Source: Bacillota bacterium (GTDB lineage: Bacteria > Bacillota > DTU025). Taken from it: DNA of 56,712 nt. The first letter of the stretch is position 1. Each line of letters starts with the position of its first letter. A program made the position numbers and the translations under genes. Below the pieces are notes generated by a model. It saw only the letters and a program-made list of their open reading frames with translations, was not told where the DNA came from and searched no databases. The DNA lies in assembly GCA_028709305.1 (NCBI GenBank), contig JAQVXE010000004.1, positions 1-56,712 of the forward strand. The letters run 5' to 3'. Shown in pieces: positions 24,886 to 38,720 of this stretch.

Positions 24886-25374
24886 TTACCCCTTCCCCCT
24901 GCACCTTGCCGAAACTCGTTCGGCCAGCGGCTCGGGTACTAAGCCGTCAATACATCCACCGGAGCTTGCTACTTCTTTGACAATGCTCGAGCTGAGGAAT
25001 GAGTACTCCATAGATGTCATTATGTACATAGTCTCTATGCTGGGGTCAAGCTTCCTGTTCATCAAAGCCATTGTCAGCTCGAACTCGAAGTCCGATACTG
25101 CACGAAGGCCCCTAACAACCACGTGTGCCCCACGGTTCCGCACATAGTCCACCAAAAGCCCTTCAAAGTGATCAACCTGCACATTGGGAAGATGGGCGCA
25201 TGCAACCCTCAGCATCTCCAATCGCTCTTCCAAGGAGAACACATGAACCTTCGCATGATGCTCCAGGATCGCGACGATTACATTGTCAAAAACGGACGCT
25301 GCGCGAGTTATGATATCTAGGTGCCCCATGGTTACTGGATCGAAACTGCCCGGACATACTGCAAGGGTCAACAT
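24886..25374 (-). CDS. coaD: Phosphopantetheine adenylyltransferase
   Basis: AVCPGSFDPVTMGHLDIITRAASVFD...VVRGLRAVSDFEFE. Confidence 0.98.
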   Translation of the reverse strand: MLTLAVCPGSFDPVTMGHLDIITRAASVFDNVIVAILEHHAKVHVFSLEERLEMLRVACAHLPNVQVDHFEGLLVDYVRNRGAHVVVRGLRAVSDFEFELTMALMNRKLDPSIETMYIMTSMEYSFLSSSIVKEVASSGGCIDGLVPEPLAERVSARCRGKG

Positions 25375-25944
25375 TTATCCCTCCGACGAGTACATGTAGA
25401 AACCGACCTGCGTGTCACCGTAACGCTCCTGCCGTACCTTTATCATCCGTGAGGATTCAGCGGGAGTGGCATCCCGTGATGAGTGTTCTACGATGACGAG
25501 GCCATTTCCTGCGAGAATTCCCGCATTCTCTATGAGGAGCAACAACTTGTCGAAGACGTCCAAGGCATAGGGGGGATCCGCGAATATCAAGTCGTATGGA
25601 GCCCTCTCTGAAACAGGGCCCCGTTCGGCGCTAATTGCGCGAAGCGCGTCTGCTCCAATGACTGCGGCCATATCCCTGAAACCCAGATCATGCAAGTTCT
25701 TGTTTATCACTTCACGAGCAGCCCGATCCTTGTCAACGAATACGCAGTAGCTTGCCCCGCGGGAAAGCGCCTCGATACCAAGGCTGCCTACGCCGGCAAA
25801 CAGGTCCAGGACGACAGAACCTCCAATGCGATCTGCAATAATATTGAAGATCGCCTCGCGTACACGATCAGAAGTGGGCCTGATATTGCGCCCGCTGATC
25901 GTAGCTAACCGGCGACCTCCGGCGATGCCTGAAATCACACGCAT
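25375..25944 (-). CDS. rsmD: 16S rRNA (guanine966-N2)-methyltransferase RsmD
   Basis: MRVISGIAGGRRLATISGRNIRPTSDRVREAIFNI...DLFAGVGSLGIEALSRGA...DPPY. Confidence 0.96.
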   Translation of the reverse strand: MRVISGIAGGRRLATISGRNIRPTSDRVREAIFNIIADRIGGSVVLDLFAGVGSLGIEALSRGASYCVFVDKDRAAREVINKNLHDLGFRDMAAVIGADALRAISAERGPVSERAPYDLIFADPPYALDVFDKLLLLIENAGILAGNGLVIVEHSSRDATPAESSRMIKVRQERYGDTQVGFYMYSSEG

Positions 25945-25945
25945 C

Positions 25946-26275
25946 TTACTTGACTATGCTGTTGAACCAGGTTACGGCCATGGTTCCACGACCCGCATGT
26001 GTTCCGACTGCCTGTCCATCTATGACCTCAATGGCCTCAGGAACGAGTCCCTCGTAGGCCTCCACAAACTCAGCAGGAGATGGCTGGCATGTCATAGGCA
26101 TCACACGCGAAGCCCTGAGCTCCTCGAAGAACTGGGCACTTGTCAGCTCCACCATGTCGATGTAGATCTCATCATCAAACCGGATGGTGAGAGGCACTAC
26201 ATTGATGTTGCTGCCCCGAATCATGTACAAAAAAAAGTCGGAGATACTGCCGGTCACCAATGCTGTTCTAGACAT
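25946..26275 (-). pseudogene. Internally deleted DegV/FakB-like ORF (109 aa): N-terminal ~75 aa joined to the C-terminal GTHxGxG segment
   Basis: MSRTALVTGSISDFFLYMIRGSNINVVPLTIRFDDEIYIDMVELTSAQFFEELRASRVMPMTCQPSPAEFVEAYEGLVPEAIEVIDGQAVGTHAGRGTMAVTWF; GGAGG SD upstream; only ~345 nt between fakA and rsmD, so no room for a ~280 aa DegV. Confidence 0.75.
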
Positions 26276-26288
26276 CATCCACCTCCAC

Positions 26289-27989
26289 CTACTCAACGGA
26301 GATGAGGTAGTAATAGAGGGGCTGCCCGCCGTATTGGACTTCGAACTCGATGTCAGGGTATTCCTCTGCCAGACCGCTCGCCAGCGATTCCGCTTCTTCC
26401 TGGGTGACGCCAAATCCATAGATGATAGTGGCGATCTCATGATTCGCGGATTGGATCTCAGCAAACGTATGACGAACAACTTCGTCAACGCTCTCTCCAA
26501 CCACCTGCAAATCGCCATCGATGATGCCGATTATGTCATTTTCATGAATTTCAATACCATTGAATGTAGAGTCTCGCACTGCATATGTAATCTCCGCGCT
26601 CACCACTCTGCCGATGGCCTCAACCATCTTTGCGACATTATCTTCAAGCGGTGCGTACGGCGTCATGACGAGAAGCGCAGCCAGCCCCTGAGGCACTGTT
26701 TTGCTTGGGACTACGTGCACCTTGGTATCTCCGATGTCGGGCACCCCCGCAGCCTGCTGGGCTGTGAGAACTACATTGCCGTTGTTAGGAAGAACAATAA
26801 CCTCCCTGGCATAGGCCCTGCGCACGCCATCAGCTACATCCTGAATGCTCGGGTTCATTGTTTGCCCGCCAGTTATCACAACATCTGCTCCCAAGCTCTT
26901 GAGTATCTTCTCGACGCCATCCCCGGCAGCCACAGCAACAACACCCACATCTTTGAGCTCACGAGGCTCTTCTTCATGGGGTTCCACAGGCAATCCCGAC
27001 TCCTTGCCGGCTGCTCCCTCGAACTCCTCATGTTGGTCTTCCATGTTGTCAATATCGATTTCATGAAGCGAACCATATCCAATGCAGATTTCAAGGATGC
27101 GCCCAGGAGTGTTGCTATGCATGTGCACCTTCACAGTATTGCTGTCGCCGACGACGAGCATTGAATCGCCCACAATATCGTCAAGCAACGCACGCTTGAC
27201 CGCATCAGGGTCAAGCTCGCTTCCGCGAATTATCAGCTCTGTGCAGTAGGCATATTCGATCTCATGTTTCGTTCTCGCAGGCTCTTTCCCGGGCTTGAGG
27301 ACGACTCTATCGTCAGCAGGCACATCTGCCACACGCTCTATGGGTTCGCCCCTTAGCCCCTTGGCAAAGCCCTGAAAGAGCACTACCAGGCCCTTGCCTC
27401 CAGCATCGACGACACCAGCTTCCTTCAGCGCCGGCAACATCTCTGGCGTCTTCTCGAGAACAATCTCTCCTTGCTTCAGGACTTCGTCGACTACTCCAAA
27501 GATGTCTGCGCCGCTCCTGGCTGCTTGAACCCCGGCGCGGGCACCTACCCGCGCCACAGTGAGAATTGTACCTTCCACGGGCTTCATTACTGCCTTGTAA
27601 GCTACATTAGAGGCCTCCTGGAAAGCCGCTGCCAAATCCATCGGTTCGGCCGTTTTCAGCCCGTGCAGGCGTTTAGCAAACCCCCGCAGCAACTGAGATA
27701 GTATGACACCCGAGTTCCCCCTGGCACCCATAAGAGAGCCCAAAGCTATGGCGTCAGCTACGTCTGCCACTGAAGCCGGACCCGCCTTCTCCGCTTCCTT
27801 GAGCGCGGCGGAGACCGTGAGATACATATTTGTCCCAGTATCGCCATCTGGGACTGGAAACACGTTCAACGAGTCGATCAGACTCTTATGTTCACCAAGC
27901 CAAGCCACACCGGACTCGAAGGCAGCCGCAAGCACCGGTCCGTCTATAGCCTTCATGTGCGAGGCCTGACTCTGCTTTATTCCAGACAT
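26289..27989 (-). CDS. fakA: DAK2/DhaL-domain fatty acid kinase-like protein (YloV/FakA family)
   Basis: LIDSLNVFPVPDGDTGTNMYLTV...GARGNSGVILSQLLRG; long C-terminal domain; next to asp23. Confidence 0.92.
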   Translation of the reverse strand: MSGIKQSQASHMKAIDGPVLAAAFESGVAWLGEHKSLIDSLNVFPVPDGDTGTNMYLTVSAALKEAEKAGPASVADVADAIALGSLMGARGNSGVILSQLLRGFAKRLHGLKTAEPMDLAAAFQEASNVAYKAVMKPVEGTILTVARVGARAGVQAARSGADIFGVVDEVLKQGEIVLEKTPEMLPALKEAGVVDAGGKGLVVLFQGFAKGLRGEPIERVADVPADDRVVLKPGKEPARTKHEIEYAYCTELIIRGSELDPDAVKRALLDDIVGDSMLVVGDSNTVKVHMHSNTPGRILEICIGYGSLHEIDIDNMEDQHEEFEGAAGKESGLPVEPHEEEPRELKDVGVVAVAAGDGVEKILKSLGADVVITGGQTMNPSIQDVADGVRRAYAREVIVLPNNGNVVLTAQQAAGVPDIGDTKVHVVPSKTVPQGLAALLVMTPYAPLEDNVAKMVEAIGRVVSAEITYAVRDSTFNGIEIHENDIIGIIDGDLQVVGESVDEVVRHTFAEIQSANHEIATIIYGFGVTQEEAESLASGLAEEYPDIEFEVQYGGQPLYYYLISVE

Positions 27990-28839: not shown

Positions 28840-29688
28840 TCATTCGCGGCCCCCAGTAGCCAACGCGCGCCTGTGTAGGCTCAGCACAACTCCATAATCA
28901 GTTGTCGCCGAGCCGAGAACGACTCCTGACTGTGAAAGAGGTCCATGACAATCAGATCCTCCAGTGGCAATAAGCCCGTATTCATCAGCTACACTCTCGT
29001 ACCGCTTCTGCTGGGCCTGCGTGTGATGGGGATAGAACACCTCTATTCCGCCCAACCCGCACTCCACCAGCCCAGGTATCATCTCATCCTTGTCCGCCAA
29101 GCCTGGATGGGCCAACACTGGCACTCCCTGAGCAGTCAGGATGGCCTCAACTGCCTCAAATGGAGTCAGCTTCGACCTGCTAACATAGGCCGGAGCGTGA
29201 AAGCCTATGTAATGGGCAAAAGCTTCGTCCCAGGTAAGCACATATCCTGCTCTTACCATAGCAGCCGCTATATGCGGCCTGCCCACTGCGCCCTCACCTG
29301 CATGCTCCAGCACATCCTCCTTGTTCAGGCTGATTCCGAGAGCAGCAAGTTTCTTGAGCATCTGCTCTACCCGTCGCATCCTGCTCTCTCTCTGCGATTC
29401 CAAGAGCCCGAGCAGACCCTCATTCTTGTAGTTTATGCAAAACCCGAGTATATGAACCTCCCCGTCGCTGACGTCTGTGGATATCTCCACTCCCGGCACT
29501 ACGTACACTTCAGTCCCTTTTGCCGCCTGAAGCGCCTCCTCTATGCCATCTACTGAATCGTGATCGGTTACGGCTATGGCGGCGAGGCCGCGCCTAGCGG
29601 CCTCCTCCACCAATTCAGTTGGCGTGAACGTGCCGTCTGACATGGTAGTATGGCAGTGCAGATCAGCGCGCCCTGTTGACACCCACAA
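28840..29688 (-). CDS. PHP-domain phosphoesterase
   Basis: ADLHCHTTMSDGTFTPTELVEEAARRGLAAIAVTDHDSVDG...LAHPG...GGSDCHG. Confidence 0.93.
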   Translation of the reverse strand: MWVSTGRADLHCHTTMSDGTFTPTELVEEAARRGLAAIAVTDHDSVDGIEEALQAAKGTEVYVVPGVEISTDVSDGEVHILGFCINYKNEGLLGLLESQRESRMRRVEQMLKKLAALGISLNKEDVLEHAGEGAVGRPHIAAAMVRAGYVLTWDEAFAHYIGFHAPAYVSRSKLTPFEAVEAILTAQGVPVLAHPGLADKDEMIPGLVECGLGGIEVFYPHHTQAQQKRYESVADEYGLIATGGSDCHGPLSQSGVVLGSATTDYGVVLSLHRRALATGGRE

Positions 29689-32600
29689 TCACCTTCTCGC
29701 CGTTAACGTCCCATTCACGAACGTATTCACCCTCAGGCTCGCCTTGGGCAAGCGACGTTGAAAGGGTCTCCTTCATGAGGTAGTCCCTGTGAACCTGCAG
29801 AGCCTTCATGGAGTCGGGTCCGCCTGAGACTATCGCATCTATCCGGTCAGACACCTCAAACCCAGCCTCTTTGCGCGTTGTCTGGATCTTGTTCACCAAC
29901 TCCCTGGCGAAGCCTTCCAGCTTCAACTCCTCGGTGATGACGGTGTCGAGGGCTATCGCGCGTCCACCCTCTGACTGCAGATAGTATCCCTCAGAAGCCA
30001 CCGTTTCAATGGAAACCTCCTCAGGAAGCAGCGAAACCTCTGTTCCATCCCTCAAAGCCACGCTGAACTCTCTGCCTTCAAGAGACTTCTCGGCAATCTC
30101 TGACGCATCCGCTTCAGCCACAGCAGCAGCGATCGCCTTCATCAGATTGCCATGCTTCGGCCCGAGAAGATCGTATCTTGGTTTCACTCTGTATGACACA
30201 AACTTACCCATGTCCCTGACATACTCCAGTTCCTTTACGTTGAGCTCATCCTCCACAAGGTCTGCAAGCAGCCTCAGATCTTCTTCCTCCTGCCGAGTGG
30301 CTCTCACCACAATCTTCGACAGCGGCTGCCTGTTCTTGATGCTAACTTCGTTTCGGGCTGCCCGGCCCAGGTACACAACCTGCCTGACCAGATCCATTCG
30401 CCTTTCAAGATCGATATCCCGGCTCCATGCATCTGCTTTCGGATAGTCCTGGAGGTGGACACTGCCTAAGGCTGGCTCGAGATTGGTGAATATCTCCTCC
30501 GCCAGGAAAGGCGTAAACGGCGCAATCAGCCTGGCAATTGTCGTCAGACTCTCATGTAGAGTGAGGTATGCAGCCTGCTTGTCAACGGTCATTTCACTTG
30601 CCCAGTATCGCCTGCGACATCTGCGCACATACCAGTTGGACAAGTCGTCCACATATTCCTCAATCCTTCTTGCGGCCTGAGTTATGTCGTATGCATCCAT
30701 TGCATCAGTCACTTCACTGACAAGCCCGGATAGCCTTGAAAGAAGCCACCTGTCGATTAACGGGCGATCCTCATAGGAAACCTTGCACTGGCCGGGATCG
30801 AATTCATCGATGTTTGCATACAATACGTAGAATGCGTATACATTCCAGAGCGTACCCATGAACTTCCGTTTGGCCTCAACGATACCGTCCTCATAGAATC
30901 TCGTCGGATTCCATGGAGCGTTCACTGTATAGAGATACCATCTGACGGCATCGGCCCCGTGCTCATTGAAGAGCTTCCAAACATCCACTACGTTGCCCTT
31001 GCTCTTGCTCATCTTCAGCCCGGCTTCGTCGAGAACAAGGCCCAGCACGACACAGTTTTCAAATGGCGACCTGCCGAACAGCAGCGTGGATATGGCAAGA
31101 AGCGTATAGAACCATCCGCGAGTCTGATCCACTGCTTCAGTAATGAAATCCGCCGGAAATGCCGCAGAGAACACTTCGGCGTTTTCAAATGGATAGTGCC
31201 ACTGTGCAAAAGGCATGGAGCCAGAGTCAAACCAGCAGTCCATCACCTCAGTCACCCGTCTGGCGTCTCCTCCGCACTGGGAACATGCCAGGATTGCCTG
31301 GTCGATGTATGGCCTGTGCAACTCGAAGTGGTCGGGCAAGGACTTGGCCATGCTCTTGAGCTCCTTCACGCTTCCAACAGCATGCTCGTGTCCGCATTCC
31401 TCGCACACCCAAATTGGCAGCGGCGTGCCCCAGTAGCGCTCACGGCTTACGGCCCAGTCTATGACGTTTTCGAGGAAGTTGCCGAATCTGCCATCCTGGA
31501 TGTGCTTGGGATACCAGTTGATCTTCGCATTGTTTTCCAAGAGCTCATCCCGCAGGTCAGACATTCTAATGAACCATGAGCTTCGCGCGTAATAGAGCAG
31601 AGGCGTATCACATCGCCAGCAGAACGGGTAGCTGTGCGAGTAATCCATCTCCTCAAACAGAAGGCCACGAACCTCCAGGTCCTTTACGATTAGCGGATCA
31701 GCATCCTTGACAAACATCCCGCACCAATCACAGGCTCTGTCGTCAAATCGGCCTTGGGCATCCACAAGCTGCACTACCGGCAGGTTGTGTTCTTGTGCAA
31801 CGCGCATGTCATCCTCGCCAAATGCCGGGGCTATGTGAACGATCCCCGTTCCCTCGGAGAGCGTGACGAAGTCGCCTTCCACAACCATATACGCAGGCGC
31901 CTCAGGCTCTGCAAATGTGTAGAGCGGCTCGTACTCCATGCCTACAAGCTCAGAACCCTTGACCACGCGCAGGATGCGGTAGTCCCCTTCCAATCTGGGC
32001 TCCACAAGATCCTTAGCCATGATCAGCGTCTCCCCATTGGACTGGACATACGCATAATCGTAATCGGCGGACACAGCCAAAGCTACATTGGAAGGCAACG
32101 TCCACGGAGTGGTCGTCCACGCCAACAGCGACACGTTCTCCTCGCCCCGGACCCTGAACCTTACGAAGATGGAAGGCTCTTCTACATCCTTGTAGCCCTG
32201 TGCAACTTCGTGGCTGGAAAGCGCAGTTCCGCACCGAGGACAGTAGGGGACGACCTTGTGACCGTGGTACATCAGACCCTTATCCCAAATGGTCTTTATC
32301 GCCCACCAAACAGATTCGATGTACGAGTCATGAAAAGTCACGTAGGGGTCGTCCATGTCTATCCAAAAACCCAGTCTCTCGCTCATGCGACGCCACTCGC
32401 CTTCATACTTGAAGACTGACTCTTTGCACCTCTGGACAAACTCCTCTACGCCGTACTTCTCGATCTCGGGCTTCCCGCTTATCCCCAACTGCTTCTCCAC
32501 TTCAAGCTCGACAGGGAGGCCATGAGTATCCCAGCCAGCCTTGCGCGGCGCATAATACCCATTCATGGTCTTGTACCGGAGCACAACGTCTTTCATGGCA

Positions 32601-32785
32601 CGCGTCAGAACATGGCCTGGATGAGGCAGACCATTGGCTGTAGGAGGCCCTTCATAGAAGACGAATCGAGGTCCGCTCTCCCTCTGAGCCACACTCTTAT
32701 CGAATATCTTCTCCTCCCGCCAAGCCTCCAGGATCTCCTGTTCCATTCGGGGGAAGTCCATAGCTGAATCGACTTTCTTGAACAT
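29663..32785 (-). CDS. ileS: Isoleucyl-tRNA synthetase (type 2 / eukaryote-like form)
   Basis: GLPHPGHVLTRAMKDVVLRYKTMNGYYAPRKAGWDTHGLPVELEVEKQLGI; KMSKSKGNVVDVW; start MFKKVD. Confidence 0.97.
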   Translation of the reverse strand: MFKKVDSAMDFPRMEQEILEAWREEKIFDKSVAQRESGPRFVFYEGPPTANGLPHPGHVLTRAMKDVVLRYKTMNGYYAPRKAGWDTHGLPVELEVEKQLGISGKPEIEKYGVEEFVQRCKESVFKYEGEWRRMSERLGFWIDMDDPYVTFHDSYIESVWWAIKTIWDKGLMYHGHKVVPYCPRCGTALSSHEVAQGYKDVEEPSIFVRFRVRGEENVSLLAWTTTPWTLPSNVALAVSADYDYAYVQSNGETLIMAKDLVEPRLEGDYRILRVVKGSELVGMEYEPLYTFAEPEAPAYMVVEGDFVTLSEGTGIVHIAPAFGEDDMRVAQEHNLPVVQLVDAQGRFDDRACDWCGMFVKDADPLIVKDLEVRGLLFEEMDYSHSYPFCWRCDTPLLYYARSSWFIRMSDLRDELLENNAKINWYPKHIQDGRFGNFLENVIDWAVSRERYWGTPLPIWVCEECGHEHAVGSVKELKSMAKSLPDHFELHRPYIDQAILACSQCGGDARRVTEVMDCWFDSGSMPFAQWHYPFENAEVFSAAFPADFITEAVDQTRGWFYTLLAISTLLFGRSPFENCVVLGLVLDEAGLKMSKSKGNVVDVWKLFNEHGADAVRWYLYTVNAPWNPTRFYEDGIVEAKRKFMGTLWNVYAFYVLYANIDEFDPGQCKVSYEDRPLIDRWLLSRLSGLVSEVTDAMDAYDITQAARRIEEYVDDLSNWYVRRCRRRYWASEMTVDKQAAYLTLHESLTTIARLIAPFTPFLAEEIFTNLEPALGSVHLQDYPKADAWSRDIDLERRMDLVRQVVYLGRAARNEVSIKNRQPLSKIVVRATRQEEEDLRLLADLVEDELNVKELEYVRDMGKFVSYRVKPRYDLLGPKHGNLMKAIAAAVAEADASEIAEKSLEGREFSVALRDGTEVSLLPEEVSIETVASEGYYLQSEGGRAIALDTVITEELKLEGFARELVNKIQTTRKEAGFEVSDRIDAIVSGGPDSMKALQVHRDYLMKETLSTSLAQGEPEGEYVREWDVNGEKVIVGVNRAR

Positions 32786-32844
32786 CCGCAGACACAACCT
32801 CCTTGACTCCTACTTGACAGATACGCAGCAGAACACGGCAAAAG

Positions 32845-33115
32845 CTTAAACCCCCCGTCCACAGGGACGAGGGGTCAACTCGCGGTACCACCCTTAGTTG
32901 GCCGACCTTTGGTCTGCGTAAAGCAAGCAATCCAGCGTCTATCAACTCAAATGTCGGCCCACTCATTAGCCCGGCTAACGCCCGGGGTGCGGCACAGCTT
33001 ACTCGCTCTCTTTCAGCCTGCAACTCAGGGGTGATTTTTCCGACGTGACCTGCGCGGAGATTCCACCGTCCCCCGCTCTCTGGAGCCGTCCTGGTCGCTA
33101 CTCTTCCCCATCATC
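32845..33115 (-). promoter_or_regulatory. T-box leader (Ile specifier) for ileS
   Basis: Minus T-box AGGGTGGTACCGCGAG at 32879-32894; terminator CCCCTCGTCC-CTGT-GGACGGGGGGTTT; stem I AGAGAGC and specifier region GAAAAATCACCCCTGAG (ATC at 33033-33035). Confidence 0.95.
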
Positions 33116-33252
33116 GTTTTTTCCTTCATTCAGCTAGAATCAATCTACCATACAGCTACATCCAGCGTCAACTCGCACAAGTCTCGAAGTCTGCAGAATC
33201 CAGTCGCACTGCAACCGTTTGGGAGCAGCCTGCCCCCTCAAACCTTCCACAG

Positions 33253-37130: not shown

Positions 37131-37828
37131 GTTTCTTCCCCCCTTCTATCGATCCATACAGACGCGTTAATGCCGCTCGGGCCCACACTATTCGTATACC
37201 ATCATGGGGTATATTTGTCAATAGCCTCATGCCATCGTCCCCGCCCGGCCACACCTGCGTGAGCAATGGTAACTCAATGTTCGCTCAAGGCTTAACTGAG
37301 TTGAATCACGAGCTTCCGAGGGGATGCGTTTCGCCTGAAGCGGATAGTCGCCAATGGCTTCGAACCCTGTGCCACCTAGTTTGATGGCGATTTCAAGCAC
37401 TTGAATGCGCATGTGAATGCGACTATGAGAGTTTGGGATGGGGATTTGGGGATAAAGTACAAGTAGTTAGCCGGGTGACCCATCAGTGGGCCGATGTTTT
37501 TCATGATTGGCCCATGGGCGGGTCACTTGCCCCCGAAAGCCACCCGCCAGCAGGTCATCCCGCTCCGCCACAATGAAGAAGTTACAAGATCATCACGGCT
37601 GTGAGTAAGGCCACTTCCATCGGCAACTGGCACTTTCGAGCGCAAGCCAGTCGGTACTGTTCTGTGGTTACTTTGAATGCATGAACCGACCCTCACTCGC
37701 AAAAGGGCAACCCAAACGGGGATCAATGGAGCTGTTCCCATACGTAAAGCCTCGTCTGCAACGTTCGTCGAGATTCGCCGCCTGATGCATGGGATGGCGA
37801 TGCCCGGCGTAAAGCCGGGCATCACATG

Positions 37829-38193
<365 letters not shown>

Positions 38194-38572: not shown

Positions 38573-38644
<72 letters not shown>

Positions 38645-38648
38645 GTGG

Positions 38649-38720
38649 CTCCCCGAGCAGGATTCGAACCTGCGACCCACCGGTTAACAGCCGGTTGCTC
38701 TACCGCTGAGCTATCGAGGA
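38649..38720 (-). tRNA. tRNA-Asn (GUU), CCA encoded
   Basis: TCCTCGATAGCTCAGCGGTAGAGCAACCGGCTGTTAACCGGTGGGTCGCAGGTTCGAATCCTGCTCGGGGAG(CCA). Confidence 0.96.

Follow-up and report, generated by a model that had tools for sequence, protein, structure and literature searches.

An open 109-residue reading frame beside fakA is most probably the remnant of a recently inactivated fakB-type degV gene

Does an open reading frame of 109 residues, which resembles a DegV protein without its centre and lies beside fakA, encode a new mini-protein, or is it what remains of an ordinary gene? The window (the whole stretch of 56,712 nucleotides analysed here) is one entire contig of a 2.38-Mb draft genome in 192 contigs (G000). 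A sequence-only reading had described the frame, named mini-degV below, as free of internal stops, preceded by a good Shine-Dalgarno sequence and placed in the usual fakA-degV position. All of this is borne out: the frame is open and is located between intact fakA and rsmD. Along the minus strand, the cluster runs from fakA (upstream) through mini-degV and rsmD to coaD, with the following features.

26289..27989, minus strand: fakA, 566 aa, intact three-domain protein (PF02734, PF21645, PF13684; TIGR03599, 608.9 bits)
26280..26286, minus strand: Shine-Dalgarno sequence GGAGGTG of mini-degV (duplex energy -14.0)
25946..26275, minus strand: mini-degV, 109 aa plus stop, very probably a decayed fakB-type degV (ORF call, Pfam, tree, alignment)
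25375..25944, minus strand: rsmD, 16S rRNA methyltransferase type (PF03602), start codon 1 nt past the mini-degV stop (very weak Shine-Dalgarno sequence, duplex energy -1.6)
24886..25374, minus strand: coaD, phosphopantetheine adenylyltransferase (PF01467), next in the cluster and used as a control

Scanning the fakA-degV-rsmD-coaD cluster for promoters and terminators gave results at chance level. Elsewhere in the window, we observed a class A RNase P RNA (RF00010, 326 bits; 37828-38186, minus strand) with two tRNA genes just upstream (38573-38720), and a T-box leader (32860-33123, minus strand) upstream of a 1044-aa ORF (29663-32797) that, read by eye, we take to be isoleucyl-tRNA synthetase. 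A SpoVT gene (PF15714; 34657-35196, minus strand) is also present, so the organism probably forms spores.

The proposed homology to DegV is confirmed by a Pfam PF02645 match of 65.9 bits (cut-off 27), which spans only profile positions 2-81 of 280. The scores against the NCBIfam models TIGR00762 (DegV family; 73.3 vs 99.7) and NF038249 (39.5 vs 350) fall below their cut-offs. As had been noticed from the sequence, a conserved motif is altered, with TDSSSD changed to TGSISD, and the second signature is likewise altered from GTHAGPG to GTHAGRG. AlphaFold modelled the mini-degV product with a pLDDT of 39, but a full-length DegV control given an equally shallow alignment also failed, reaching just 44.7. 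A scan of genome contigs with the mini protein retrieved just two distant full-length Ruminococcus DegV genes, and a search of plasmid records returned ordinary DegV matches only.

Alignment to 284-aa orthologues showed that about 30 residues are missing in one in-frame deletion and about 145 in another. The centre was thus lost in frame as the sequence-only reading had proposed, not by a single deletion but by two, which flank the short block PEAIEVIDGQAV. Approximately 175 of the 284 residues are missing, or 62% of the coding length, and three blocks are retained.

26042..26275, minus strand: block 1, with TGSISD and TCQPSP, orthologue residues 1-78 (codon alignment to G003, G004, G005, G007 and G008)
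26006..26041, minus strand: block 2, PEAIEVIDGQAV, orthologue residues 109-120, between the two deletions (alignment)
25949..26005, minus strand: block 3, GTHAGRGTMAVTWFNSIVK, orthologue residue 266 to the end (codon alignment; NSIVK and the rsmD start region conserved in G001)

The fakA-rsmD interval was compared across genomes of the order, from the window genome (G000) to G008. A full-length degV of 284-286 aa occupies the slot in five relatives, G003, G004, G005 and G007 of the same family and G008 of the same order, so that four other genera of the family or order keep an intact orthologue at this locus. These relatives show the order fakA-degV-rsmD-coaD and are likewise without recG in that interval, so that its absence beside mini-degV is nothing unusual. 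The sole same-genus genome with the slot assembled (G001, locus L070) has 248 bp between fakA and rsmD, containing a frame-broken degV remnant. Its 74-aa frame begins with MSRLAAMTDNSCD, aligns weakly to the DegV N-terminus and then departs from the original frame; no DegV profile matches it. Against the G003 orthologue the remnant scores 63.5, where the best of 300 shuffles reaches 49.0, a margin that is smaller or absent against some other orthologues. The remnant shares with mini-degV the slot, the start (MSR..A..T), the reduced state and a nearly identical final 25 nt upstream of rsmD, whereas its deletions are different and it lies outside the original frame. G001 lacks stretches that are present in the window genome, and the two genes were therefore reduced at least partly independently. 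In another genus of the same family (locus L075, G006:C18), degV is cleanly gone, leaving a 3-bp gap between the fakA stop and the GTG start of rsmD. Another same-genus genome (G002, completeness 72%) had no match to fakA or rsmD; both G001 and G002 are incomplete drafts.

The junction of mini-degV was found in none of the other genomes among 399 of the phylum, and the relatives compared contain no intact short form of degV; the shared short form that had been sought is thus missing, the G001 remnant being of another kind. A full-length degV in every close relative, which would have marked this copy as a unique, simple pseudogene, is not what the comparison shows: it is present in other genera but not in G006, nor in G001 of the same genus, where the gene is more degraded. 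At a contig end in G001 lies a second DegV gene (L036 1436-1852, G001:C42), nearest to G000_C147 and its relatives, which is interrupted by frameshifts and stops. Barring assembly errors, this points to a turnover of DegV paralogues in the window genus.

In a DegV protein tree, mini-degV falls inside the fakA-linked clade, whose members include G004, G003 and G007, and is placed beside G004 (local support 0.79) on a branch of 0.56, compared with 0.15 for G004. The window genome encodes five further full-length DegV proteins, which answers the question whether intact paralogues exist elsewhere. We considered whether one of them is the intact gene, moved to another site, and rejected this, as 0/5 fall in the fakA-linked clade. 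A fragment at the edge of contig C98 was also rejected as the missing C-terminus, since its sequence differs (AHSGPGTLSVFF).

The codons that remain were examined for constraint, with the five orthologues as the reference for invariant residues and fakA, rsmD and coaD of the window genome as controls. Where the five orthologues all share the same residue, mini-degV is changed at 11 of 52 positions, compared with 23 of 369 in the three controls together (Fisher p = 0.001). Relative to the G003-G004 distance, its amino-acid branch is 1.41 (95% CI 0.83-2.39), and those of fakA, rsmD and coaD are 0.52, 0.42 and 0.26, respectively. Judged from these alignments, constraint on the remaining codons is relaxed. 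Changes are commoner at codon position 3 (4/12) than at positions 1 and 2 (11/126), which suggests that mini-degV was under constraint until recently; the excess at positions 1 and 2 by itself is not significant (p = 0.24). A dN of 0.25-0.30, well below a dS of about 2 or more (saturated), indicates that most of its history was constrained, and with one sequence for the window species these figures do not isolate selection since the deletions. Neutral drift of 0.1 substitutions per site would leave an ORF as long as this one open with a probability of 0.44, and an open frame is therefore not by itself evidence of function.

The residues known to matter in FakB proteins allow the product to be judged. 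In Staphylococcus aureus FakB1, Thr62, Ser95, Ser171 and His270 form the network that holds the fatty acid carboxylate (PMC8892158), Arg173 is required for phosphorylation, and Arg205 is needed for FakA and membrane binding (PMC9136124). We mapped these residues onto the orthologue through a FakB1 alignment. The Ser95 equivalent lies in the first deletion and those of Ser171, Arg173 and Arg205 in the second, leaving only the Thr62 and His270 equivalents of the carboxylate network. With that network incomplete and both arginines missing, mini-degV is predicted not to form a functional FakB subunit. The window FakA itself keeps a C-terminal Glu equivalent to Glu548 of S. aureus FakA, which is the FakB docking residue (PMC9136124).

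Taken together, these results make it most likely that mini-degV is a gene undergoing ordinary decay and not a novel mini-protein, and we consider it very probable that it is a fakB-type degV inactivated recently and still decaying. This member of the fakA-linked clade has lost two internal in-frame segments and has drifted at conserved residues; in the same slot, a sister species carries a gene with a different reduction and another genus has lost it altogether. Any product would probably be unstable and unable to bind or present a fatty acid, and FakA may be served by the five full-length DegV proteins encoded elsewhere in the genome, its likely partners. The window copy has neither stop nor frameshift, the frame being broken in G001, and it would still be open because little time has passed since inactivation and neither deletion, by chance, shifted the frame. 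Several observations fit decay less well, including a frame that remains open behind a strong Shine-Dalgarno sequence, a dN still well below dS overall, and a sampling of one sequence for the species alongside two incomplete drafts. The suggestion of a recent in-frame deletion pseudogene nevertheless agrees with the relaxed constraint, the parallel losses in the sister species and the other genus, and the intact paralogues. The alternative put forward with it, a retained mini-DegV that carries no fatty acid but acts on FakA by binding it, as a regulator or decoy, found no positive support. The open frame, its strong Shine-Dalgarno sequence, the adjoining intact fakA and the retained Thr62 and His270 equivalents are compatible with such a role, but the arginines for FakA binding and catalysis are deleted, as are both serines, the form is absent from relatives, conserved residues have drifted, and the sister species retains even less. 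We regard a decoy as very improbable. An assembly or binning artefact hiding a full-length gene is slightly less credible still: the assembly is a draft in 192 contigs, but the two junctions are clean and in frame within a 56.7-kb contig, the genes on either side are intact, and the slot in G001 is independently reduced. Moreover, no second copy or leftover of the missing middle occurs in the assembly, where the sole partial DegV (C98) belongs to another paralogue.

A further reading concerns the start of rsmD and could hold alongside the decay of the protein. The mini-degV frame may act as a translated spacer whose protein is irrelevant, carrying ribosomes by coupling to the start of rsmD (possibly also coaD), so that the surviving deletions would be those that keep a frame ending at the rsmD start. 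The rsmD Shine-Dalgarno sequence is weak in all eight genomes (-0.5 to -7.1; -1.6 in both G000 and G001), whereas those of degV and coaD are strong (duplex energy -10 to -14), and in every relative with an intact gene the degV stop adjoins or overlaps the start of rsmD. In each of the three reduced lineages, a frame ends less than 10 nt from the rsmD start (1 nt in G000, 9 nt in G001 and 3 nt in G006, where the frame is that of fakA itself). Against this, deletion simulations with remnant length left free and little drift, using two random deletions for G000 and two to four for G001, gave an open frame ending at rsmD with a chance of about 0.18-0.28 and 0.18-0.31, respectively. The G000 value counts against plain two-deletion decay; with just two partial remnants, at about 0.2 each, the joint chance is about 0.04-0.07, and the hypothesis was framed after the data had been seen. 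We therefore hold the spacer role in the window to be possible, with the balance tilted against it. The wider proposal, that the degV slot is being lost in the family while selection keeps a translated leader handing ribosomes to rsmD and the remnant is kept for its frame and not its sequence, is somewhat more doubtful. For the decaying gene, rsmD initiation by ribosomes leaving mini-degV may also help to hold the frame open, which is suggestive only.

As an ordinary decaying paralogue, mini-degV matters little in itself. It does warn that a frame may be open and have a good Shine-Dalgarno sequence without encoding a functional small protein, and it documents the repeated loss of a fakA-linked fakB within one family whose genomes still hold several other DegV genes. 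Should the coupling prove real, the locus would be a simple example from nature of a pseudogene whose frame stays open because this serves the next gene downstream.

The closest known systems are FakB1 and FakB2 of the DegV (EDD) family (S. aureus FakB1, PDB 5woo and 7sg3; FakB2, 4x9x). With them mini-degV shares the N-terminal 78 residues, the C-terminal GTHxGxG segment and the Thr62 and His270 equivalents, and it directly follows fakA. It differs from them in the loss of Ser95, Ser171, Arg173 and Arg205 and in its altered TDS and GPG motifs. Another FakB with a missing segment is the truncated FakB4 of Streptococcus suis, a protein of 222 aa without residues 5-69 that formed inclusion bodies in vitro (PMC10138225). 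FakB4 lost its N-terminal part and kept the rest, whereas mini-degV lost its centre and kept the N-terminus.
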